This document shows, piece by piece, positions 47,609 to 59,463 of a stretch of DNA of 64,000 nt. The position numbers and the translations under genes are program-made. The stretch comes from Bacteroidales bacterium (lineage in GTDB: Bacteria; Bacteroidota; Bacteroidia; Bacteroidales; Tenuifilaceae). The stretch covers positions 62,001-126,000 of the forward strand of contig JAFGDZ010000069.1 in the NCBI GenBank assembly GCA_016931855.1. Reading direction: 5' to 3'. Numbering within the stretch: the first letter of the stretch is position 1; each line of letters starts with the position of its first letter. A model generated the notes under the pieces. That model was not told the origin of the DNA, did not search any database, and saw only the letters and a program-made list of their open reading frames with translations.

Positions 47609-47616
47609 TATCTTTG
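47609..47616 (+). promoter_or_regulatory. -7 element of the ABC transporter operon
   Basis: TATCTTTG matches TAnnTTTG 16 bp before the ATG at 47632; the -33 box at 19 nt is poor (CCTG). Confidence 0.45.
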
Positions 47617-47631
47617 CACAAACAACAGACT

Positions 47632-48603
47632 ATGCGAGTTAAACTAGCAGTTTTTGCACTAATCATCTCACTCCTCTCTGCTTGCCAAAGCAATCGGAAA
47701 GCAGAAAGTAGCACGGAACACTTCACCATTGCCACGCTTAAAGGGCCTTCGGCAATGGGAATGATTTGGGTTGTTGATAGCCTTGCCCAACTTGGAACCA
47801 ACGCCACAGGGAAAGCGGTAATCCTTAACGAGCCGCTACAGGTTAGGAAGATGATGCTTGAGGGCGAAGCCGATTTTGCTGTACTGCCCACCACCATGGC
47901 TGCCATTATGTACAACAAAAAGGTGGACTACCAGCTGCTTGCCATTCCCGTTTGGGGAACGCTTTACCTTTTTGGCAGCGATACCACCATACATACCTGG
48001 GAGCAGCTAAGGGGCAAGCGCATAAACGCCATGGCAAAGGGCATGACCCCCGATGTGCTATTCCGCTACCTATTGCAGCAGCACGGCATAAACCCCGAAA
48101 CCGATGTTACGCTCGACTACTCGTTCCCAACCCACATAGACCTAGCCAACGCTGTGGCAGCAAACCGCGCATCGCTTGGCGTAATATCCGAGCCGCTTGT
48201 AAGTCTGGTTGCCCACAAAAACCCTAGCGTTAAGGCAATAATGGACCTTAACAAGGAGTGGATTGAGGCTACAGGCATGGCCATGCCGCAAACCGCGCTT
48301 ATGGTTAAGCGCCAATTTGCCCAGCAGCACCCCGATGTGGTGAATCAGGTATCTGCGGCCTTTGCGCACTCAACCCAATGGGTAAACGCTAACCCCGTGG
48401 CCGCTGCCGAGCTAATTGTTAAGTACGATATTCTACCCAATGCCGCGGTTGCCCAGGCATCAATCCCTCGCTCAAACCTAAGCTACGTTTACGCTATCGA
48501 TATAAAAGAGCAAATAAATGGCTACCTTGAGCTGTTTTACAAAATGAATAGCGATATAGTTGGAGGAAAAGTACCCGATGATGGCTTCTACTACAAGAAA
48601 TAA
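47632..48603 (+). CDS. ABC transporter substrate-binding lipoprotein (NitT/TauT/ThiY-like)
   Basis: About 323 residues with a lipoprotein signal peptide (MRVKLAVFALIISLLSAC; Cys at 18). The mature part has a periplasmic-binding-protein fold of the NitT/TauT/SsuA/Thi5 type: FTIATLKGPSAMGMIWVVD, MMLEGEADFAVLPTTMAAIMYNK, WEQLRGKRINAMAKGMTPDVLFRYLL, and ASLGVISEPLVS. Relatives bind nitrate, taurine, alkanesulfonates or pyrimidines; the ligand here is undetermined. It overlaps the permease gene by about 26 bp. The ATG at 47632 is favoured over one 6 codons upstream because it begins the signal peptide and respects the -7 box. Confidence 0.85.
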   Translation: MRVKLAVFALIISLLSACQSNRKAESSTEHFTIATLKGPSAMGMIWVVDSLAQLGTNATGKAVILNEPLQVRKMMLEGEADFAVLPTTMAAIMYNKKVDYQLLAIPVWGTLYLFGSDTTIHTWEQLRGKRINAMAKGMTPDVLFRYLLQQHGINPETDVTLDYSFPTHIDLANAVAANRASLGVISEPLVSLVAHKNPSVKAIMDLNKEWIEATGMAMPQTALMVKRQFAQQHPDVVNQVSAAFAHSTQWVNANPVAAAELIVKYDILPNAAVAQASIPRSNLSYVYAIDIKEQINGYLELFYKMNSDIVGGKVPDDGFYYKK

Positions 48604-49336
48604 GCTGATAACTGCGCTCTCCATCCTCATTTTGATAGGAGTTTGGAAGATTGCTTCGGGGGTAATCGCCTCCGATTTGGTGCTACCATCGCCAGAGCAC
48701 ACGCTTGCAAGCACATGGCACCTGCTTATATCTCCCGATTTTTTGCTGATTGTTGGAGCCACAATATCACGGGGCGTTCTGGGCTTTATCCTATCCTTTA
48801 TCCTTGGGCTGGCCATTGGAATACTAGCGGGCATGAGCAGCGGTTTCAACGCATTTTTTAAGCCCATTCTGGTAACCATCCGCTCCATCCCCATTATTGC
48901 GCTAATACTACTGGCGCTAATTTGGCTTCAGGTTGATATGGTTCCCGTTTTCATTGCCTTCTTAACCATGTTCCCCTTTATTTGCACCAATGTAATAGAG
49001 GGTATAAAAAACGTTGACCCCGATTTGGTTGAGATGGCGCAAACCTACCGCATATCCCGTTCACGTATTGTAAAGGAGGTTTACATTCCGGCAATCACTC
49101 CCTATATTTTTAGCGGAGCATCAAGCGCAATGGGCATTGGCTGGCGCGCCATTATTATTGGCGAGGTGCTTAGCCTTCCCCAAATGGGCATTGGTACCTT
49201 TATGCAGAATGCCCAAACCTACCTTAAGGTTGATGTGGTTATTGCCTGGACCATTGTTGCCGTTGTTATAAGCTACCTTTTTGAAGTAATAATCCGCCGC
49301 ATTGAGCGTGCCATTGTAGTTTGGAAGAAACCATGA
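48578..49336 (+). CDS. ABC transporter permease (NitT/TauT-like)
   Basis: A ~252-residue inner-membrane permease with about six helices. The EAA loop is DLVEMAQTYRISRSRIVKEVYIPAITPYIFSG (about residues 154-185), the ATPase-docking motif of the NitT/TauT class. Two adjacent ATGs (48578, 48581) follow a GGAGG at 48562; both are possible. It overlaps the binding-protein gene at its start and the ATPase gene by an ATGA overlap at its end. Together the three make one importer. Confidence 0.9.
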   Translation: MMASTTRNKLITALSILILIGVWKIASGVIASDLVLPSPEHTLASTWHLLISPDFLLIVGATISRGVLGFILSFILGLAIGILAGMSSGFNAFFKPILVTIRSIPIIALILLALIWLQVDMVPVFIAFLTMFPFICTNVIEGIKNVDPDLVEMAQTYRISRSRIVKEVYIPAITPYIFSGASSAMGIGWRAIIIGEVLSLPQMGIGTFMQNAQTYLKVDVVIAWTIVAVVISYLFEVIIRRIERAIVVWKKP

Positions 49337-50040
49337 GCCTAACCATACAAAACCTAAGCAAGGAGTTTAACGGTGTTACCCTTTACAACGATTTTAGTAT
49401 CGATATAAAAGAGGGTACCATAACTTGCATACTTGGCCCATCGGGATGCGGAAAGACTACGCTGCTAAACATGATTAGCGGCACGCTAAAACCCGACCAA
49501 GGAACCTTTACTGGCTTTGATGGCAAAGTGCAATCGTACATTTTTCAGGAACCCCGACTACTCCCGTGGAAAACCGTTGAGCAGAACCTAGCCTTTGTGC
49601 TTAACCACATTGAGGATACCGAGACCAAGGAGAAGCTAATTAAGCAGTTCTTGCGCCTTGTTGAGCTAGATAAGTACTCCCACTATTACCCATCGCAGCT
49701 TAGCGGAGGAATGAAGCAACGGGTAGCCATTGCCCGTGCCTTTGCTTACCCATCGGATATAATCCTTATGGATGAACCACTTAAAACCCTCGACTTTAAG
49801 CTTAAGCAAACGCTAATGAAGGCCTTTGGCAAGCTGTGGCAGCTAGATAAGCGCACCGTGCTGTTTGTTACTCACGATGTTGAGGAGGCGCTTACCCTAG
49901 GCAACGATATCTACCTATTTAGCAAGCAACCCGTTACCATAAAACAGAAGTTCACCATTAACACCCCTATTGCAGAACGAAGCATTGATTCCGATGAACT
50001 TGTACAACTAAAAAGGAATATACTACGTGAGATGGATTAG
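49333..50040 (+). CDS. ABC transporter ATP-binding protein (NitT/TauT-like)
   Basis: A 235-residue ATPase with Walker A GPSGCGKTT, Q-loop YIFQEPRLLPWKTV (the LLPW text is typical of NitT/TauT ATPases), signature LSGGMKQR, Walker B DIILMDEP and switch THDVEEAL. The usual F-G-A-L-D D-loop context reads LKTLD here. The ATG at 49333 overlaps the permease stop as ATGA; the TTG at 49321 is inside the permease. It powers import by the preceding permease and lipoprotein. Confidence 0.93.
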   Translation: MSLTIQNLSKEFNGVTLYNDFSIDIKEGTITCILGPSGCGKTTLLNMISGTLKPDQGTFTGFDGKVQSYIFQEPRLLPWKTVEQNLAFVLNHIEDTETKEKLIKQFLRLVELDKYSHYYPSQLSGGMKQRVAIARAFAYPSDIILMDEPLKTLDFKLKQTLMKAFGKLWQLDKRTVLFVTHDVEEALTLGNDIYLFSKQPVTIKQKFTINTPIAERSIDSDELVQLKRNILREMD

Positions 50041-50049
50041 ATGCTTTCA

Positions 50050-50697
50050 CTACTCCTTTAATCGCTCATAGCCCACGTAAATACGCCAAACACCCAGCAC
50101 TATTAGTATCACTGCACTAATAGGGAATCCACCCGTACTACTAAGCGTCAGTAGGATAAACACGGAGCCCAGAATTGCTAGGGTGTAACCAATAGTTAGG
50201 TTTTGCTTGCCGCTATTCTTAATCTGAACCTTGAGCATTTCGCTATCACTCTTATCAATGGCGAGGTTTTCCTCAAGTTTTTCGGTAATTTCCCCTTCTT
50301 CAAAACCCTCCTTTTTAAGGTAGGTCATGTACTCAAAGGCGCTCTCTTTAAGGTTATCGTTCTCGTTGAGAATTGCGAAGATATCAACCCCATTCTCACG
50401 CAAATCGAGCTTGATGCTCTCAATGGACTCTCCTTCCTGAATGCGCTCCTTAACGTGATCCTGCATCTCATAAAGAGACATCTCGGCATAGTTGGGCCGT
50501 TCTGGCTCATCCTTTTTTACACCCACTAGAAAATCGGTAATAAGCAGAGCTTCAGCATTCATCCCCCTTCCTAAAAGTTCCTTCTGTAGCAAGGGAATTG
50601 CATCCAGACGTAAATCCTGTGGGCGTTGTGCTATTTGGAGCAGTTTCTCATTGGATACGCCTTGGTAGTAGGCCTCAATATCATTCAAATTACTCAT
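50050..50697 (-). CDS. Uncharacterised protein with coiled N-terminal part and two C-terminal membrane helices
   Basis: A 215-residue protein. Residues 1-165 are hydrophilic, acidic and helical (LNDIEAYYQGVSNEKLLQIAQRPQDLRLDAIPLLQKELLGRG at the start, then several Glu-rich helices), with a hint of repeated ~30-residue units. Two hydrophobic helices follow (about 172-188 and 192-208). The start pattern PQDLRLDAIPLLQKELLGR resembles that of Bacteroidota proteins with no assigned role. It is convergent with the ABC operon, only 9 bp away. No function is proposed. Confidence 0.7.
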   Translation of the reverse strand: MSNLNDIEAYYQGVSNEKLLQIAQRPQDLRLDAIPLLQKELLGRGMNAEALLITDFLVGVKKDEPERPNYAEMSLYEMQDHVKERIQEGESIESIKLDLRENGVDIFAILNENDNLKESAFEYMTYLKKEGFEEGEITEKLEENLAIDKSDSEMLKVQIKNSGKQNLTIGYTLAILGSVFILLTLSSTGGFPISAVILIVLGVWRIYVGYERLKE

Positions 50698-50820
50698 ATG
50701 TGGAGCAAGTTACGTTGAACCAAATGTGAACTAAAGATAATCACAAAATCTGTCGATAAACAGGTGATATCAATCAAATAAGTTGTTTGGGTTTTAGCTC
50801 AATGTACCCATTATGTTTTG

Positions 50821-50828
50821 TATGTTTG
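50821..50828 (+). promoter_or_regulatory. -7 element upstream of the LysE-type gene
   Basis: TATGTTTG matches TAnnTTTG 44 bp before the ATG at 50872. A second near match (TATGTTTT, 50812-50819) overlaps it; TTTG at 50786-50789 could be the -33 box of the second, at 22-nt spacing. Confidence 0.4.
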
Positions 50829-50871
50829 CATCACAAAAGTTCACAATTTACTTATTGATGCTAAAGGGTAT

Positions 50872-51507
50872 ATGACATCACATCTTTTAATCACCTATGT
50901 GGTTCTTGTAATAATTACCACCTACTCACCAGGACCTGCCGTTTTCTTTATTCTAACCAACTCTACCCTTTATGGCTGGCGCAAAGCGCTATACGCAGCA
51001 CTAGGTAATATTAGCGGCTTACTTTGCCTTGGTATTATATCCTTTACCGGATTAGGCACAGTTCTTACCGCATCGCAATCCATTTTTGATATAATAAAGT
51101 ATGCTGGTGCGGCTTACCTAATTTACATGGGCGTTAAGATGCTGATGGATAAGAACTCAAACTTCTCGGCTGATAATATAGGCTCTGGCGCACTAACCAT
51201 ATCATCCCGAAAGCTTTACTTTAAGGCCATGACGGTTGCGCTTAGCAACCCTAAGGCTATCGTTTTTCTCACCGCACTTTTCCCCCAGTTTATAAACACT
51301 AGCAACAGCCTCCTACCCCAATTTGTAGTGCTTTTAGGTATCCTGATACTCTTCTCGTTCACAGCGCTAATGACATACGCCGTATTAGCTCATCAAGCAA
51401 AGGGTTGGATTACCAAGCCAAGTAGGGCGGGCTACGTAACCAAAACGGGTGGCTCGGTATTTATATTCTTTGGTATTATACTGGCACTTTCGGGAAGAAA
51501 GAGCTAG
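50872..51507 (+). CDS. LysE/RhtB-family amino-acid exporter
   Basis: A 211-residue membrane protein with about six helices. TTYSPGPAVFFILTNSTLYGWRKAL is the family signature near the N-terminus (PGP plus the following polar helix), and KAMTVALSNPKAIVFLTALFPQF is the second conserved block. Family members export amino acids such as homoserine, threonine or lysine. ATG 50872 is preferred; the 18 codons upstream are not family-like and overlap the promoter region. It shares a bidirectional terminator with the amidohydrolase gene. Confidence 0.88.
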   Translation: MTSHLLITYVVLVIITTYSPGPAVFFILTNSTLYGWRKALYAALGNISGLLCLGIISFTGLGTVLTASQSIFDIIKYAGAAYLIYMGVKMLMDKNSNFSADNIGSGALTISSRKLYFKAMTVALSNPKAIVFLTALFPQFINTSNSLLPQFVVLLGILILFSFTALMTYAVLAHQAKGWITKPSRAGYVTKTGGSVFIFFGIILALSGRKS

Positions 51508-51540
51508 GGCATTCTTGCTATGTCATATATTTTAAACAAT

Positions 51541-51580
51541 AAGGGGTGTAAACAGCAATGCTTACACCCCCTTTTCTTTT
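51541..51580. terminator. Bidirectional terminator between the LysE-type and amidohydrolase genes
   Basis: The stem AAGGGGTGTAA / TTACACCCCCTT, with a 10-nt loop, is followed by TTCTTTT on the plus side. It separates two convergent genes. Confidence 0.82.
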
Positions 51581-51591
51581 GCACCAGCCAA

Positions 51592-52911
51592 CTAGTTTGT
51601 AGCCAAAGCATACCACTTTGCCATATACTTTTTAGGATTTTCTACTGATATTTTATCAAACATCGCTGCTCCAAGAGTCTTCTGCATTCGTTGCAAGTAC
51701 TGCTCAAAGGAGTCGTTAAAGAACATATCAAGGAAGAAATCGGAGCCATACAGCACCTTATCCTGTATATCGGGATTGCTATTGTAAATGGCTTTGGCCG
51801 CCTCAATGGTAGGCACATCGCTCATGCACGACAAGTCGGTGTAGCAGTTGGGGTACTTCTTTAACAGCCTAAGGATATCAGCCTGCCAAACATCGCTACC
51901 GCTACCAAAATGGGCTAAAACAAGTATCAAATTGTTGTACTTCTCAAGCACTTTTTCCCACACAAGCGGATTATTAAGCACACCGGCACGCTCGCGTACC
52001 ATCACCGTAAAACCATCCCTAAGGCCTTTGCTAAAAGTGTAGGCACCACTGTAGGCTACAGCCTCAGCCTTTCCGTCGGGAACTATATACCCGTTCACAT
52101 CAATACTCATTGCTGGGGTGGCAAAACCGCCATAGGAACAATGGGATACCACAGGAATTTGATTCTTGCTACAGAACTCGAAAACGGAATCGGGGCCAAC
52201 CAGAACCTTATCATATGGAGAGAAACCATTGGGAGGGTACACCTTAACACCTGCAAAGAGCTTGCCGGCACCAACATTACTCAGGTACGACTTAACATTG
52301 GAGCGCCGTGGGTCAACGCCAAGAAAAGGAACAAGCCTATCCTTGTACTTTGCATTTTTTGCTAGCTGCTCTATCTGCTCATATTGTATGGTAAAGCCAT
52401 CCTTTGATGCGCCCAACATTTTGCTTGGAGCCGACTGCTCCGATAGCTTTGCCAGAAAATCCATTAGCAGCTTACCATCGTTATCGGCAAGGAGCATAAG
52501 GTTCTGAGCAACGGTAGGACTACCTTTTGTGGCACTTCCTTTTAGTAAACCGCTCTGCTTGGCATCGGCAAGTAGCTGGTGTATTGGCTGCATATGGTCG
52601 TTGCTTGCCGAATCTAGCAAAAAATCGCCATCAAACATCAACGGGAATAGCTTATACTGGCGCTTATAGTTCTTGTCCAGCATATCGAATATCTTCTCGC
52701 TGTCGCCAGTAAAAATCTTGATAAGCTGCACCAGCTTTTTAATCTTAATCTTAACCTTTTTCTGCTTATCGACCGAAACCGCATTTAGGCTAAGCGTATT
52801 TCCCTTTTCATCGGTCAAAAGGCTAACCGACTCGTTAAGTTCCTCCAGGATGGCTTTCCATCCAACGGTTAAAATGTTAAATACATGGCAATGGCAATCG
52901 AAACGTTCCAT
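51592..52911 (-). CDS. Amidohydrolase-family metal-dependent hydrolase next to the graspetide genes
   Basis: A 439-residue protein of the amidohydrolase (TIM-barrel) superfamily. The N-terminal metal site is RFDCHCHVF (HxH); later candidates are K in AGVKVYPPNGF, H in VVSHCSYGG, H in LVLAHFGSG and D in VLYGSDFFLD, in the order expected for this fold. Homologues are mostly labelled amidohydrolase 2/membrane-associated hydrolases without a defined substrate. It lies 96 bp after the second graspetide ligase on the same strand, with no terminator or clear promoter in between, so it may be co-transcribed with the RiPP genes. A hydrolytic or maturation role in that cluster is speculative. Confidence 0.82.
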   Translation of the reverse strand: MERFDCHCHVFNILTVGWKAILEELNESVSLLTDEKGNTLSLNAVSVDKQKKVKIKIKKLVQLIKIFTGDSEKIFDMLDKNYKRQYKLFPLMFDGDFLLDSASNDHMQPIHQLLADAKQSGLLKGSATKGSPTVAQNLMLLADNDGKLLMDFLAKLSEQSAPSKMLGASKDGFTIQYEQIEQLAKNAKYKDRLVPFLGVDPRRSNVKSYLSNVGAGKLFAGVKVYPPNGFSPYDKVLVGPDSVFEFCSKNQIPVVSHCSYGGFATPAMSIDVNGYIVPDGKAEAVAYSGAYTFSKGLRDGFTVMVRERAGVLNNPLVWEKVLEKYNNLILVLAHFGSGSDVWQADILRLLKKYPNCYTDLSCMSDVPTIEAAKAIYNSNPDIQDKVLYGSDFFLDMFFNDSFEQYLQRMQKTLGAAMFDKISVENPKKYMAKWYALATN

Positions 52912-53007: not shown

Positions 53008-54012
53008 CTAAATATCAATACTCCTTTTCCTCCTCTTAATTCCACTGTTGAGCAGAGAATCGGCTATGGCCTCGGAGATGGGCAAACCTGGGTTCTCCTC
53101 CAACCAAAAGAACTCGCCCGAAGGATTTACCTCAAGGAAAATGTACCTATCATCATCTGTAACAATCATGTCAATGGCACCATAGTTCAAGTTAAAGTAA
53201 TCCATAAGCTTTAGCAGCTTGTGCTCGATATCGGAAGGAAGCGTAAACACTTTCCAATCGCGAATAAGGGTGTGCCCCATTTTTCGCCAATCGTTCTTAG
53301 CCCTATCGTAATCGGCAGAGTTTATTGAGGCTGCAAACACCCTATCGCCCACAATGGTAATTCGCAGCTCCAATTTTTTAGCGATATTGCGCTGAAAGGT
53401 CATTGGGCAATACTGCAAACCCTCTAAATCGCTCAAATCATCGGCAGTAATAGGATTGGTAAACACAACATTTTCAACGCCTTTATCATATATAGCAAAG
53501 GATGCCTGCATTTTGGTTATCACCTCGCCATTAAGCTCATGGTAAAACGATGGTACCGCTTCGGCACTATTGGTAATAAGGGTTTCGGGAATTTCTAAAC
53601 CCAGTGCAGCGGCAACCTTTAGCTGCAGCTGTTTGCATCCTGCTTGCTTTAGATCCCAGTAGTTATCGAGTTGGAACGCATCAAGGGAACTAAGCATCCC
53701 AAAGAAAGTGCGGCGGCTCTCCTCAACAGAAGGAACCTTGAACTTATCTTCTAAAACTGTTCCTAAATGGCTTCCTAGGGCTAAACGGCGGTACCAAACC
53801 GATTCCAAGTTGGTTAAATCGAAGCACTCTCCATCGGCCAGCAGCTCTATTTTCCACCTATTGTTTACATACTCAATATTTAACGATGAGGCTAATGGGT
53901 ACTTATCGGTATTAAAGCGTATAGGAATGCCACCCTTTTTTATAATTGCTTGCGACACATTCTCTATACAGCTATTATCGTTGGTTTTGGTTATAATCAG
54001 TACTTTCTTCAT
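53008..54012 (-). CDS. ATP-grasp graspetide (omega-ester/amide) peptide ligase, MvdC/MvdD-like, second gene
   Basis: A 334-residue ATP-grasp enzyme of the microviridin-type RiPP maturase family. The N-terminus is VLIITKTNDNSCIENVSQAI with RFNTDKYP; VWYRRL (about 72-77) and YCPMTFQRNIAKKLELRITIVGDRVFAASI are family hallmarks. The ATP-grasp Mg2+ site is FLEVNPSGEFFWLEENPGLPI near the C-terminus. These ligases use ATP to join Thr/Ser or Lys side chains to Asp/Glu side chains on a leader-bearing precursor. It follows the first ligase by 10 bp and is last in the core operon. Which of the two forms esters and which amides cannot be decided by eye. Confidence 0.92.
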   Translation of the reverse strand: MKKVLIITKTNDNSCIENVSQAIIKKGGIPIRFNTDKYPLASSLNIEYVNNRWKIELLADGECFDLTNLESVWYRRLALGSHLGTVLEDKFKVPSVEESRRTFFGMLSSLDAFQLDNYWDLKQAGCKQLQLKVAAALGLEIPETLITNSAEAVPSFYHELNGEVITKMQASFAIYDKGVENVVFTNPITADDLSDLEGLQYCPMTFQRNIAKKLELRITIVGDRVFAASINSADYDRAKNDWRKMGHTLIRDWKVFTLPSDIEHKLLKLMDYFNLNYGAIDMIVTDDDRYIFLEVNPSGEFFWLEENPGLPISEAIADSLLNSGIKRRKRSIDI

Positions 54013-54022
54013 AAATTCTAGG

Positions 54023-54991
54023 TTATTTATGGGCTTTTCTAATTAGGGTTGATGCAATTGCTTGAGCAATGGGAAGATTCAGGTCTCGCTGGAGCATTCC
54101 CCATTCGCCAGTAGGATTAACCTCAAGGAAAACGTACTCTCCCTTTGCTGATTTTATTAAATCGATAGCACCAAAAAGTAATCCCATGGATTTCATGTAG
54201 CTATCTAACTGCAGTTTAATGGGCTGCGGTAGCTCATACGCCTGCCAGCAGAACTCATCAGTAGCTGCCAACCTACAATCAACCTGTCCGCTCTTTGAGC
54301 TTGATGCATCCATTTTTCCTGTAAAAAAGGCGCCATCAACATATATAACCCTTAGCTCATACTCCTTTTCAATGAGTTCCTGAAACATGAGTGGACAAAG
54401 GCTAACTAGAGCGGCATCTTCTAAATCGTCGGCAGTAACCCTGCTTGTATGCAGGAACAATCCCCCTCCCTGCATTGATGTGCTAAGGGTTGTTTGCATT
54501 TTAACTACAATATTCCCGTTGTTCGCATTGTAGAAGCTACGCAAATCTTGCTGGTTGTTAGTAATCATAGTCCTAGGTATTCTCAACCCAATGCGCTGGG
54601 CTACCTGCAGCTGAACCGACTTGCTGCTTGCGTAGGAAACTACATTTAGCGGGTCTATCCAGGTAACATGATTAAGAGTATAGAAAAAACCCTTAAGGGT
54701 TTCCAGCGACTCGTGAAAGCAGCCCTTGCGGTAGGCTTCGTCTATAGATGGGTCAACCTTTGGGGAAAAGAATTTGCGCAGCCATACACCTTGAACATCG
54801 CCCGGTGCAATGCGCTGCTCCTTATAGCAAATGGTGCTAGAACTAGACCCATTAAAGGCTTGGGTAAGCTCAATGCTCAACGGGAAATCATTGGTATTTA
54901 TGCGAATAGACTCAAAACCTTTCTGTTCGAGACTTGATTTAACCAGGTCAACTGTGTAGTAATCCTGCTGATGGGTAAAAAGGAGAAACAT
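54023..54991 (-). CDS. ATP-grasp graspetide peptide ligase, MvdC/MvdD-like, first gene
   Basis: A 322-residue paralogue of the following gene. The N-terminus is FLLFTHQQDYYTVDLVKSSL with RINTNDFP; VWLRKFFSPK (about 70-79), VVKMQTTLS, CPLMFQELIEKEYELRVIYVDGAFF and the metal site FLEVNPTGEWGMLQ are conserved. The central basic segment binds the precursor leader in characterised graspetide ligases. It lies 88 bp after the precursor gene. The two ligases are clearly divergent (VWLRK versus VWYRR; TGEWGML versus SGEFFWL), consistent with different bond specificities. Confidence 0.92.
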   Translation of the reverse strand: MFLLFTHQQDYYTVDLVKSSLEQKGFESIRINTNDFPLSIELTQAFNGSSSSTICYKEQRIAPGDVQGVWLRKFFSPKVDPSIDEAYRKGCFHESLETLKGFFYTLNHVTWIDPLNVVSYASSKSVQLQVAQRIGLRIPRTMITNNQQDLRSFYNANNGNIVVKMQTTLSTSMQGGGLFLHTSRVTADDLEDAALVSLCPLMFQELIEKEYELRVIYVDGAFFTGKMDASSSKSGQVDCRLAATDEFCWQAYELPQPIKLQLDSYMKSMGLLFGAIDLIKSAKGEYVFLEVNPTGEWGMLQRDLNLPIAQAIASTLIRKAHK

Positions 54992-55079
54992 AGATTATTC
55001 CTATTAAAAAAGTTATCGTTTTACATTATTGCTAAAAGCAAAACATAAAACGATAACAACAAATTAGTCCAATGACCTT

Positions 55080-55268
55080 CTACATCAATTCTTCTTCAAT
55101 GCCTTCATCATCATCAGAAGGATACTTCATTGTTACATTCTCATCATCGTCAGATGGAGCTTTCATTGTAACTTTAGGTCTAGGAATGCAAATTGCTCCT
55201 TTTACATTTTTTTCTTCTTCTTGGCTCAACTGATTTTCCAAAAAGCGTGCGAAAAAAGGCTTTTTCAT
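55080..55268 (-). CDS. Double-core microviridin/marinostatin-like graspetide precursor
   Basis: A 62-residue precursor. The leader MKKPFFARFLENQLSQEEE carries the PFFARFLE motif, the recognition helix of microviridin-type leaders. The core region has two copies of a 12-residue unit: residues 34-43 TMKAPSDDDE and 46-55 TMKYPSDDDE. Spacing T(i), K(i+2), S(i+5), D(i+6), D(i+8), E(i+9) equals that of the tricyclic microviridins, so each core could hold Thr-Asp and Ser-Asp esters and a Lys-Glu amide. Marinostatin (TMRYPSDSDE) is the closest known core but has Arg for Lys. The likely product class is a serine-protease inhibitor (known for the family). The tail after core 2 is GIEEELM. First gene of the operon, with two ligases downstream. 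Confidence 0.93.
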   Translation of the reverse strand: MKKPFFARFLENQLSQEEEKNVKGAICIPRPKVTMKAPSDDDENVTMKYPSDDDEGIEEELM

Positions 55269-55323
55269 AATTAAGTTAATTTAAGGGTTAATAAAGAATG
55301 CTTAAATATAACACCTTTTGTCG

Positions 55324-55355
55324 CAAATTTACACTTAATGATCATTTTTAACACA
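55324..55355 (-). promoter_or_regulatory. Putative promoter of the graspetide operon
   Basis: On the minus strand TAAATTTG (55331 to 55324) matches TAnnTTTG; TGTG (55355 to 55352) lies 20 nt upstream as a near -33 box. The leader before the ATG would be about 50 nt. Confidence 0.55.
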
Positions 55356-55522: not shown

Positions 55523-56077
55523 CTAAAAGATGATAAACCGATAGCCAAAAGTAACGCCAATAGGACGTAGCCTCCCCTTGAACTCAACACCCTCATTCAG
55601 TTCTAAATCGTCCATGTAATCGCGGTATTCAGAACTTCTAATTGGGACTAATAACGACACAGTCCAATAACCAATAGACTCGGGCTTTAGCTTAAAGTCC
55701 AACCCAACGCCAACGGTTGGTCCATAAAAAATTTTGTTATGCCTGCTATCGCCAACCACTACCACAACGGAATTGTATCCATACATTGCAATACCAGAAA
55801 AAGTGAGTGCCGATTTAGGCTTACCAGATAAGAACCTAACCTTAACCCCTGCATTGTAGCCTATACCCGCAATTGCCCATCCAGCACCTGCAAATAATCC
55901 TACGTTTTTAGTGGGATATGCCGTTAAGTTACCGCCTATTCCACCATAATCAAAACCAAACCCAACTCCGAAAGAGAGTACATCGGGCTTTACAGGATGT
56001 GAAATAGAATCTTGTGCGCTAATTGCACCTGATAAGAAAAAGAGCAAGACAATAAATAAAACTTTTAGAATCCTCAT
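55523..56077 (-). CDS. Predicted outer-membrane beta-barrel protein, unknown function
   Basis: A 184-residue protein with a signal peptide (MRILKVLFIVLLFFLSGAISAQ). The mature part alternates polar and aromatic residues as in small eight-stranded porin-like barrels (LSFGVGFGFDYGGIGGNLTAYPTKNVGLFAGAG, later GYWTVSLLVPI) and ends with the aromatic strand GVTFGYRFIIF, the usual C-terminal barrel signal. ATG 56077 is chosen because it starts the signal peptide. It has its own terminator and is separated from the graspetide operon, so no link is claimed. Confidence 0.78.
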   Translation of the reverse strand: MRILKVLFIVLLFFLSGAISAQDSISHPVKPDVLSFGVGFGFDYGGIGGNLTAYPTKNVGLFAGAGWAIAGIGYNAGVKVRFLSGKPKSALTFSGIAMYGYNSVVVVVGDSRHNKIFYGPTVGVGLDFKLKPESIGYWTVSLLVPIRSSEYRDYMDDLELNEGVEFKGRLRPIGVTFGYRFIIF

Positions 56078-56494
56078 AAACAAATAATTAAAATACATTA
56101 CACCTGTAATAAATAACTAACAAACCTAATAACCTATTTAAAGCATAGTTAATATCCAACGTAACACGTTCTATTTCTAAAATACAGCCAATTACGTTCT
56201 ACATAACTGGTTTTAGCATCAGCACAAAATTCTTAATGCGCAAATTGGAATACTCTAATAGCAGCTCATGCTAGCCAATTAACCGTCAACAAGCACTACC
56301 ATATTGTTAGTGTCCTGAACTTGGGCATAAAAAAAGCGACAAAAAGCAATGTAAGGGGCTAATCAGGGCTGTTTTTTATAATGAAGAGCCTTTTTTGCAT
56401 ATATCGCTAGCTATCTATATACTAAATACTTAAACAAATATACTGCCAATACAAATATGGTAAGCATCAGTCCAATAAGAGAACCAAAACAAAT
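56078..56494. other. 417-bp gene-free region upstream of the barrel gene
   Basis: No ORF with protein-like features, no tRNA and no clear terminator were found. The region is AT-rich with scattered poly-A runs (56330-56345). It may hold a promoter for the barrel gene; no exact TAnnTTTG box was identified. Confidence 0.35.
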
Positions 56495-57430
56495 CTAATA
56501 AATTAATTCATCAACCTCACTAAGCCCAGAGCTAAGCTGCTCCTTTAGTACGTGCGGATTTAGCAGGTTAAGATTAAAGCACACAGCCTTTTGAAAAAGC
56601 AGAGTGCCCTCATCGCTATGTAGAGTACCATCAAAATCTAATATATGTATCTCTACGTCCGCTTCGCGCTGCGCATCAATTGGGGTTCCCCCGCTAATAA
56701 TGGCCATGGCTTTGTAGCTGCGCTGCCCCCACAATAGGGTTACGGCATAAATTCCCGTTGGAGGAACTAGCTTTCCAGCCTCCTCTACCTGAACCCGCAG
56801 AGAGGGGAAGCCTACCTGAGTAAAGATATTGCTTCCGCGCCCTAAAGCGCCAATTATCATATACTGATGGTCGAGATAGGCGTTGGCTCTTTGAATACGC
56901 CCCTCCTTTAGCGCCTTGCGAATGGTTGTTGAGCTAACCGTTTCGTGATGAATATCCTGCTCCGGAATCTCCTCAACGCCAAAGTTGAGCTCCTGGCTCA
57001 AGGTGTATAAATTGCTAAAATCGCCCTGCCTATTGTGCCCAAAGTGGTGGTTAAAGCCCACTATAATATACTTGGCATTTAGCGTGCCCACAAGCAACTT
57101 GCGAATAAAATCTTCGGAAGTAACTTTTGAGAATTCAAGGGTAAACCGTACTAGTATAAGATGCTTTAGCCCAGCCTTCTCAAGCAGTACTATCTTCTCC
57201 TTTTGCGAGCAGATAAACTGCAAATCGCGTCCCTGCGTTTCGGGATAAAGCACCTTGCGCGGATGCGGATAAAAGGAAACCAGTACCGACTCGCCATCAA
57301 TTTGCCCGGCAATTTCGTTTAATCGGTTTAGTATGGTTTTATGGCCTACGTGAACACCATCAAACGCCCCTGTTGTAACAACGGGATTCTTTATTCCGGT
57401 AGCATTCTCAAACCCAAAGTGGACTTGCAT
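56495..57430 (-). CDS. ribF: Bifunctional riboflavin kinase / FAD synthetase
   Basis: A 311-residue enzyme that converts riboflavin to FMN and then FAD. The N-terminal FAD synthetase domain has TTGAFDGVHVGHKTIL (the GHxxxL-type nucleotidyltransferase motif) and the SSTTIRKALKEGRI segment. The C-terminal kinase domain has GRGSNIFTQVGFPSLRV and LVPPTGIYAVTLLW with the acidic EVHILDFDGTLHSD-like part (here EIHILDFDG). It supplies flavin for the flavodoxin, HydB and the flavoprotein in the window. It lies 115 bp downstream of rex on the same strand. Confidence 0.94.
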   Translation of the reverse strand: MQVHFGFENATGIKNPVVTTGAFDGVHVGHKTILNRLNEIAGQIDGESVLVSFYPHPRKVLYPETQGRDLQFICSQKEKIVLLEKAGLKHLILVRFTLEFSKVTSEDFIRKLLVGTLNAKYIIVGFNHHFGHNRQGDFSNLYTLSQELNFGVEEIPEQDIHHETVSSTTIRKALKEGRIQRANAYLDHQYMIIGALGRGSNIFTQVGFPSLRVQVEEAGKLVPPTGIYAVTLLWGQRSYKAMAIISGGTPIDAQREADVEIHILDFDGTLHSDEGTLLFQKAVCFNLNLLNPHVLKEQLSSGLSEVDELIY

Positions 57431-57545
57431 TAAAAGCGGATATTTGATGCGAGTAAAAGGAATACACTACAAACATGCATGTCATCAAAAGTAGAAAAAG
57501 CGGCCCTACAACTAGTCTCTGCGTAGCCAACACTAGCTCTCTATT

Positions 57546-58166
57546 CTATTTCTGCTCCTTAACAAAGTAGGCTACCTTTTCCAGCGAGGTAATCATATCA
57601 AACTCCTCAAGAAAAACGGATGAAGGAACGTTAAGTGGCGTTGTGGTAAAGTTTAGTATTCCCTTTACTCCGGACATAACAAGCATCTCGGCTATGGCTG
57701 TAGCGGTATCGGGTGGCGAGGTAATTATACCAATTGTAATACCCTGCTTCTTAATTACGTTTTGCAGCTCCTTAATTGGAAAGCAGTTAACGCCCGATAT
57801 TACGCGGTCAACTTTATTGGGGTCAATATCAAAGGTAGCAACAATGTTAAGCTTTGGGCGCTTGCCGTTAAAGTATGTGGTAACGGCTCGGCCAAGGTTT
57901 CCCATGCCTACTACAGCTACGTTTAGCCCATAAGGATGGTCTATTAACTTTCCAATAACCTCAATAAGCTCGTGCGCATCGTAGCCCTTCTTTTTTAGGC
58001 TTGAATAGCCTATTAACATTAAATCTCTACGAACCTGAACGGCAGTAATATTGTGCAAACCAGCAAGTTCGTGAGAATAAATATGCGTCTTGCCTTTCCC
58101 TAGGCATTCTAGTAAGGTGCGGCGATACTCGCTCAACCTCTCAACGGTTTTTTCAGGTAGCTTCAC
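57546..58166 (-). CDS. rex: Redox-sensing transcriptional repressor Rex
   Basis: A 206-residue NADH/NAD+-sensing repressor. The N-terminal winged helix has LPEKTVERLSEYRRTLLECL and the recognition helix ITAVQVRRDLMLIGY; the Rossmann domain has VAVVGMGNLGRAV (GxGxxG, about 87-92) followed by the acidic ATFDIDPNKV. Rex leaves DNA when NADH rises and typically controls fermentation and hydrogenase genes. It lies 160 bp after the REC-histidine kinase gene on the same strand, close to the hydrogenase genes. No clear Rex operator (TTGTGAA-N4-TTCACAA type) was found in the promoters seen. Confidence 0.94.
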   Translation of the reverse strand: MKLPEKTVERLSEYRRTLLECLGKGKTHIYSHELAGLHNITAVQVRRDLMLIGYSSLKKKGYDAHELIEVIGKLIDHPYGLNVAVVGMGNLGRAVTTYFNGKRPKLNIVATFDIDPNKVDRVISGVNCFPIKELQNVIKKQGITIGIITSPPDTATAIAEMLVMSGVKGILNFTTTPLNVPSSVFLEEFDMITSLEKVAYFVKEQK

Positions 58167-58326
58167 GCTGTTTATATTTGAATAAGGTTATCAACACTAA
58201 AATACAACACTCTTGTTATTAGGCGAGCGTTCAACTTACAAAAATGCAACTTTTAAGATAAATAATGCTAAAAAGGTTTAATGTAGTACCAATAAAGTTT
58301 TGCGCAATGCAAAAATCATTAGGTAT

Positions 58327-59463
58327 TTACCCCTCTACCAGTGGATTTATTGGTAGGTAAACACTAAATACAGAGCCCTGTCCTAGCTGGCTATCCACCT
58401 CAACCCTACCATTATACATTAGAACCAAGCGTTTAACAATGCTTAAGCCCAAGCCGCTACCCGTTACCTCGCGGGTTTTGGCATTCTTTATTCGGGAAAA
58501 CTCATGGAAAAGCTTTGGAATATCGGCATCATCAATACCTATACCTGTGTCCTGAACCGTAATAACAACATTGGTATCCTGTTGCTTTATTGTGCATAAA
58601 ACTTTTCCCCCAACATTGTTATACTTTACTGCATTCGATATTAGGTTGTTAAACACAATCACCATCTCATCGGAATCGGCATTGTAGGTGCAGCCATCAT
58701 CGGCAGCAAGCGACATGGTAACGTCGCGCTGTATGGCAAGGGGCATCATGGTATCCATTGCCGATTTGGCCACAAGGCAAAGATCCAGCTCGCGAAGCTC
58801 ACGCTTCTTCTTCCCCGACTCAATGTGAGTAAGGTCAAGCAAATCCATAATCATGGTTCGCATGGATTTTACCCGTGCTAGGGAGCGGTCTATCATCTCG
58901 TCGTAAGCAGTCATACTGGAACCCATTTGCTTCTCCTGCATAATGTTAAGGTACCCCTCAATGGCGTTAAGCGGAGCTTTTAGCTCATGCGATAGTACCG
59001 ATAGGAACTGGAAGCGAACCTGTTTTCCTTCCTTGTGCATTTTACGGGTCATCCGCCTAAGGAAGTAGTGCTTTGAGATGTTTTCCATTGATGATTTTAG
59101 CTCCTGAGGGGTAAAGGGTTTAGGAACAAAATCATATGCACCAATGGTAGTTGCTTTAACGGCAAGCTCCAGCGATGCGTACGAGGTAATCATCATAACC
59201 AGAATATCAAGCTGGTTGTTATTAATAAACTCCAAAACCTCAACGCCCTGTATGCCTGGCAGCTTATTATCGAGCAGTACTATGGCTGGCGGAGTTTTCT
59301 TTATAAACTCAAGCGCCTCCTCGCCAGTTGCTGCTTCAATTACGTTAAACCCAATATCATCGTCCATAAAAGGGTACGATACGGTGAAGTTTCGTAGTAT
59401 TCTTGATACTCCAGAACGAATACCGGGCTCATCGTCAACCACCAGTACGTCTAACGCTTCCAT
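58327..59463 (-). CDS. REC-histidine kinase hybrid of the hydrogenase locus
   Basis: A 378-residue protein with a receiver domain first (VLVVDDEPGIRSGVSRIL, phospho-Asp D65 in VLLDNKLPG) and a histidine kinase second (H159 in FLSVLSHELKAPLNAIEGYL; N-box NNLISNAVKYN; DTGIGI; GSGLGLSIVKRL). There is no sensor, membrane or DNA-binding domain. Such REC-HK proteins take a phosphoryl group on the receiver and change the kinase activity. It starts 1 bp after the preceding lone receiver gene, so the two are co-translated, and both follow the hydrogenase-like sensor kinase. A phosphorelay from that sensor is a reasonable inference. Confidence 0.88.
   Translation of the reverse strand: MEALDVLVVDDEPGIRSGVSRILRNFTVSYPFMDDDIGFNVIEAATGEEALEFIKKTPPAIVLLDNKLPGIQGVEVLEFINNNQLDILVMMITSYASLELAVKATTIGAYDFVPKPFTPQELKSSMENISKHYFLRRMTRKMHKEGKQVRFQFLSVLSHELKAPLNAIEGYLNIMQEKQMGSSMTAYDEMIDRSLARVKSMRTMIMDLLDLTHIESGKKKRELRELDLCLVAKSAMDTMMPLAIQRDVTMSLAADDGCTYNADSDEMVIVFNNLISNAVKYNNVGGKVLCTIKQQDTNVVITVQDTGIGIDDADIPKLFHEFSRIKNAKTREVTGSGLGLSIVKRLVLMYNGRVEVDSQLGQGSVFSVYLPINPLVEG

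Follow-up and report, generated by a model that had tools for sequence, protein, structure and literature searches.

What do a short peptide gene and the two ATP-grasp ligase genes behind it make in this genome, and do the two tandem cores of the peptide set the locus apart from the graspetides already described? The three genes lie on the minus strand of the window (the whole 64,000-nucleotide stretch of DNA that was analysed) and are transcribed in the order precursor, first ligase, second ligase, with 88 bases between the precursor and the first ligase and 10 bases between the two ligases. We interpret them, with a probability of roughly 0.92, as a multicore microviridin cluster that works in the manner of class II. 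Matters of observation are the gene content, homology and conservation, the types of the ligases and the spacing of the motifs.

Table 1. Features of the cluster in window coordinates; L021, L081 and L085 are loci in other genomes.
Feature	Position	Strand	Basis
Candidate -7 promoter TAAATTTG, 55 bases before the start codon	55324..55331	-	weak
Precursor, microviridin-type, 62 aa	55080..55268	-	NF033738, PF12559, sequence
Leader helix motif PFFARFLE, residues 4-11	55236..55259	-	translation
Core 1, TMKAPSDDDE, residues 34-43	55140..55169	-	translation; identical 10-mer in L021, L085
Core 2, TMKYPSDDDE, residues 46-55	55104..55133	-	translation; identical 10-mer in L081
First ligase, MdnB/MvdC-type ATP-grasp, 322 aa	54023..54991	-	TIGR04185, PDB matches, clade
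Second ligase, MdnC/MvdD-type ATP-grasp, 334 aa	53008..54012	-	TIGR04184, PDB matches, clade

The precursor reads MKKPFFARFLENQLSQEEEKNVKGAICIPRPKVTMKAPSDDDENVTMKYPSDDDEGIEEELM in translation, and consists of a leader with PFFARFLE, followed by KGA, which is a possible leader-cleavage motif, and then by two cores. PFFARFL is named in a passage of PMC8939145 as the ligase-binding leader motif of microviridin-like precursors. The translation confirms the leader and the pair of cores that the earlier note had picked out in a 62-residue ORF; the "12-residue core repeats" of that note are real as repeats, but each core is a 10-mer recurring at a period of 12 residues, with Asn-Val forming the two-residue linker that joins core 1 to core 2. 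At the DNA level the two 10-mers are identical at 24 of 30 bases, and both follow the proposed spacing T, K+2, S+5, D+6, D/E+8, E+9, with Asp at +8. Across all six frames of the window, the pattern T.K.PSD.[DE][DE] has two matches, against none in 100 base-shuffled windows, and the core motif is therefore not due to chance. The precursor also scores well above the cut-offs of two families, NF033738 (microviridin/marinostatin inhibitor family; 58.4 bits, cut-off 26) and PF12559 (Inhibitor_I10; 32.8 bits, cut-off 21).

The two ligases, 30% identical to each other, match different models: the first is hit by TIGR04185 (MvdC type) with 390.8 bits (E 4e-117; equivalog cut-off 425), and the second by TIGR04184 (MvdD type) with 440.6 bits (E 3e-132; equivalog cut-off 475), and the fact that both stay under the NCBIfam equivalog cut-offs counts against our reading. 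Among solved structures in the PDB, the nearest to the first ligase are AMdnB 7m4s (E 1e-85) and 5ig8 (E 3e-83), and the nearest to the second are 5ig9 (E 5e-91) and CdnC 7mgv (E 3e-80). The PDB label of 5ig8 and 5ig9 is just "ATP grasp ligase", the peptide chain of 5ig9 being named Microviridin, and we take the two to be MdnB and MdnC of the microviridin J pathway. Both window ligases align nearly end to end with the solved enzymes, and all three frames of the cluster are open and of full length. In the ligase tree, the first ligase is placed in an MdnB-type clade of 30 (support 99/97) and the second in an MdnC-type clade of 28 (100/93), and within these clades each belongs to a group of 10 from Bacteroidota and genomes of the same order or class (95/90 and 100/100, respectively), both groups being separate from the cyanobacterial enzymes. 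The tree holds 60 of 145 rows, hand-picked to thin similar cyanobacteria, and includes long rows of unsure placement; L021 and L085 join in its MdnB part, and this joining may be false. With the precursor families over their cut-offs and the ligases in two clades, the two-ligase cluster with a double-core precursor stands as first described, and a single-ligase graspetide of another group, of the plesiocin or thuringinin type, is ruled out on the same grounds.

The cluster has the marks of the microviridin/marinostatin family (graspetide group 1), namely a PFFARFL-type leader, TxKxPSDx(D/E)(D/E) cores and a lactone ligase of the MdnC/MvdD type (5ig9 and CdnC as best matches, clade support 100/93, below the TIGR04184 cut-off). 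It also has that of the tricyclic microviridins, a lactam ligase of the MdnB/MvdC type (7m4s and 5ig8, 99/97, below the TIGR04185 cut-off), while marinostatin clusters are marked by being without an MdnB-type ligase. For class II, passages of PMC13039773 describe precursors, especially frequent in cyanobacteria, that have as many as five cores in a row and double-Gly motifs and are often accompanied by a C39 transporter. The window precursor has two cores, in line with the two or more per precursor of that class, but it carries KGA and GG is absent from it, and no C39 transporter, which is found near class II precursors often though not in all cases, was detected among ten scanned neighbours. 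Since the literal GG is absent, we file the cluster as a multicore microviridin working like class II, and not as strict class II; GG is present somewhere in 81 of the 88 precursors that we gathered, and the KGA of the window precursor, set against that number, counts against our reading.

The cores had been regarded in the earlier note as a hybrid, distinct variant, a view that we do not share: the consensus TX1KYPSDX2(D/E)(E/D), as given in an excerpt of PMC5934393, already has Asp or Glu at +8 and +9 and covers both cores, core 1 deviating from it in Ala for Tyr, and exact copies of the 10-mers occur elsewhere, TMKAPSDDDE in L021 and L085 and TMKYPSDDDE in L081 (a Phycisphaerae MAG). A further form, TMKWPSDDDE, is found in L082 (a Planctomycetota MAG). 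Nor does the locus itself appear distinct, as tandem cores are usual among the gathered relatives: counted with a loose pattern in which PSD was fixed, so that the residues at +4 to +6 (P, S and D) carry no weight, two or more core motifs are present in 64 of the 88 precursors, one in 23 and none in 1. The same count, together with the multicore precursors in print, supports the view of the locus as a multicore graspetide. Within the resulting 220 core motifs, T is present in 219, K+2 in 215, D/E+8 in 218 and D/E+9 in 213, and the ending DE, as in the window, is the second commonest (64/220).

The precursor family is present in 8 of 395 genomes of the phylum, including the window's own, and a match to the first ligase with an E-value of 1e-30 or below in 3 of 148 relative genomes (its own and two of the same order). 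The leader and the repeats, the conservation of which had been put forward as a check, both recur in homologues, including a genome of the same order (G107, L004/L021) with a full cluster and a four-core precursor; the first core of the latter, TMKAPSDDDENVT, is that of the window, and its first and second cores are each followed by an NV linker, as in the window. In the other genome of the same order, G090, there is only one ATP-grasp ligase, a more distant one, and the small protein encoded next to it (L022:9397-10661) is of another kind: it is 115 residues long, carries three repeats of the PSDSD type, P(S/T)DSD, and is without the PFFARFL leader. This is a different graspetide-like cluster.

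A genome-collection scan with the first ligase, whose queries were a single protein plus six short peptide patterns and which therefore favours close matches, yielded 68 loci, mostly cyanobacterial, the best being L029 (Bacteroidales MAG, 51%) and L030 (Bacteroidetes MAG, 49%), both with two-core precursors. Both ligase types were found in 62 of the 68 loci, in every case the first type followed by the second on one strand; the other six (L042, L082, L093, L094, L095 and L096) are without one or both ligases. No precursor was seen under the first pattern in 6 of the 68 loci, of which L085 gained one under a looser pattern. The 88 distinct precursors, mostly cyanobacterial, also take in the window, seven relative-genome stretches, and L009, L011 and L018. 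The L085 precursor (Bacteroidetes MAG JAEUUL010000014.1, 4271-4975, plus strand) is 234 residues long and has seven PSD core motifs, six of which fit the full T.K.PSD.[DE][DE], with irregular spacers, a diverged leader (DPLFAKFLENQ) and an NF033738 score of 99 bits; seven motifs exceed the "up to five" stated for class II precursors in the relevant passage of PMC13039773. At L030 (1090-8610 of Bacteroidetes MAG JAOQAE010000005.1), the two-core cluster lies beside a LanC-like gene and four small GG-containing, Cys-rich ORFs, and its ligases are followed immediately downstream by a C39-VKOR-thioredoxin fusion, an arrangement in which two RiPP systems possibly have one common peptidase.

A Pfam scan of the ten neighbour proteins of the window cluster (47614-52911 and 55523-59463) gave matches for eight: an amidohydrolase, a LysE-type translocator, a riboflavin kinase/FAD synthetase, three components of a binding-protein-dependent ABC system (substrate-binding protein, permease and ATPase), a protein combining a CoA-binding domain with a DNA-binding N-terminus, and a sensor kinase that also carries a receiver domain; the neighbours at 50050-50697 and 55523-56098 had no Pfam match. 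Neither a C39 peptidase nor a peptidase-transporter nor an acetyltransferase was identified by Pfam among the ten, which again counts against our reading. According to passages of PMC8939145, loci of this type do not usually encode the peptidase, and small-residue variants of GG are cut motifs too. The amidohydrolase (51592-52911) and the 191-aa ORF (55523-56098) had no tblastn match at 1e-3 in 75 loci (the seven relative-genome stretches and the 68 loci of the scan) and therefore do not look like conserved cluster genes. As for the candidate promoter, TAAATTTG fits what we take to be the Bacteroidota -7 consensus, TAnnTTTG, but the window has 72 matches to that motif where chance would give 68.8, and the motif by itself proves nothing.

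Elsewhere in the genome, the single C39 match over cut-off belongs to an ABC transporter encoded on contig C49 next to a radical SAM gene; this transporter may serve another peptide. The stretch in question (L099:848-7950), with its radical SAM protein, C39 peptidase ABC transporter and HlyD-type protein, is possibly another peptide-maturation locus of the same genome. Contig C36 (L028:13013-16589) carries a grasp-with-spasm RiPP cluster with a SPASM maturase (TIGR04193, 292.8 bits), an ATP-grasp protein (TIGR04192, 272.3 bits) and a small GG-containing protein that matches TIGR04149. The third ATP-grasp of the genome (L003/L028) is a maturase of this cluster, located beside its SPASM partner on another contig, and is not part of the microviridin system.

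For the ring pattern, leader cleavage, export and target, we infer the following from the family. The PFFARFLE helix of the precursor would bind and activate both ligases; in each core the second ligase, a predicted ester former, would link Thr to Asp(+6) and Ser to Asp(+8) by esters, and the first, a predicted lactam former, would next close the Lys(+2)-Glu(+9) amide, so that as many as six waters would be lost in total. Each core is predicted to be tricyclic, given the presence of both ligase types and of Lys+2 and Glu+9, and the product would most likely consist of two tricyclic cages, each having Met at the specificity position. Removal of the leader would probably take place near KGA, by a peptidase whose gene probably lies elsewhere in the genome and for which the C39 ABC transporter of contig C49 is a candidate, and the peptide would be exported as a serine-protease inhibitor. 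In both cores Met occupies position 5, which, as stated in sections of PMC7823629, governs specificity in microviridins, an F5M variant inhibiting subtilisin with an IC50 of 0.09 umol/L; such a residue points to putative targets of the subtilisin or elastase type rather than trypsin.

The mature product may be one covalently continuous double cage, with two Met-P1 tricyclic units only two residues apart acting as a compact bivalent protease inhibitor, a tentative proposal that we place somewhat short of an even chance. Release of two separate single-core peptides by a cut in the Asn-Val linker would still fall under the main reading, as a variant of it. In some other RiPP classes, the cyanobactins among them, tandem cores are separated by cleavage, and the same linker in the L021 precursor could mark a cut site, but the ten scanned neighbours include no peptidase gene, there is no double-Gly between the cores, two residues would leave little overhang, and multicore products, plesiocin and chryseoviridin, are reportedly made in this class. 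We consider separate release less likely than not.

Two further readings compete with the main one. If the MdnB-type ligase were idle on these cores, only esters would form and the cores would be bicyclic, as in marinostatin, which has the same PFFARFL leader and no amide according to passages of PMC7823629; the DDDE run offers several acids as possible other ring partners, and lactam linkages are described as lost in chryseoviridin systems in part of PMC8939145. We find this outcome unlikely, given that the cluster has, between its precursor and MdnC-type genes, a full-length gene grouping with the MdnB types, that both cores have Lys+2 and Glu+9, and that marinostatin is tied to the absence of MdnB in the former source. 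It is very improbable, too, that the cluster is decaying or silent, with its leader site changed from GG to GA, its export genes lost and its presence in relatives rare (the 3 of 148 genomes above), as the three frames are open and full length, the ligases match solved enzymes nearly end to end, and the variant cut motifs and missing peptidase gene are in keeping with the passages of PMC8939145 mentioned above.

Overall, the multicore microviridin cluster of the window is small and complete-looking, and adds a member to a known family and no new system, leaving the picture of the microviridins unchanged; its differences are modest, namely KGA for GG, the Asn-Val linker, two cores and no export gene of the expected kind found among the scanned neighbours. 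Judging by the nearest named ligases, those of L029 and L030, its host probably belongs to the Bacteroidota. With no more than two cores, joined by a linker of two residues, it lends itself well to asking whether multicore microviridins are released joined or cut.

The marinostatin core is presumably of the TMxYPSD type, with Met at the specificity position like the window cores, and with Arg at +2 where they have Lys. The two systems have the PFFARFL leader motif in common, as far as it is described in PMC7823629, and differ in the MdnB-type ligase of the window cluster. The chryseoviridins of Chryseobacterium gregarium share the microviridin-group leader, and their CdnC (7mgv) matches the second ligase at E 3e-80; unlike the window, their locus has four distinct precursor genes, with lactam losses in the group, according to portions of PMC8939145. 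A further known system is the AMdnA/AMdnB/AMdnC system of Anabaena PCC 7120, which likewise combines a PFFARFL-type leader, several cores per precursor and ligases of both types; it has three cores, on each of which the MdnC homologue places up to two lactones in the account excerpted from PMC5934393, whereas the window precursor has two, carries KGA in place of the class II GG and had no C39 transporter in its scanned surroundings. Counterparts among the Bacteroidota are the two-core clusters L029 and L030 and the four-core cluster L021, with first and second ligases 51/53%, 49/59% and 38/45% identical to those of the window, respectively. Cores differ in number and spacing between these loci and the window, all three have KGG where the window has KGA, and L030 has a C39 domain gene directly downstream of its ligases, where none was found in the window; in gene order, leader type and the spacing of the core motif they agree with it, and L021 shares with it the core TMKAPSDDDENVT.
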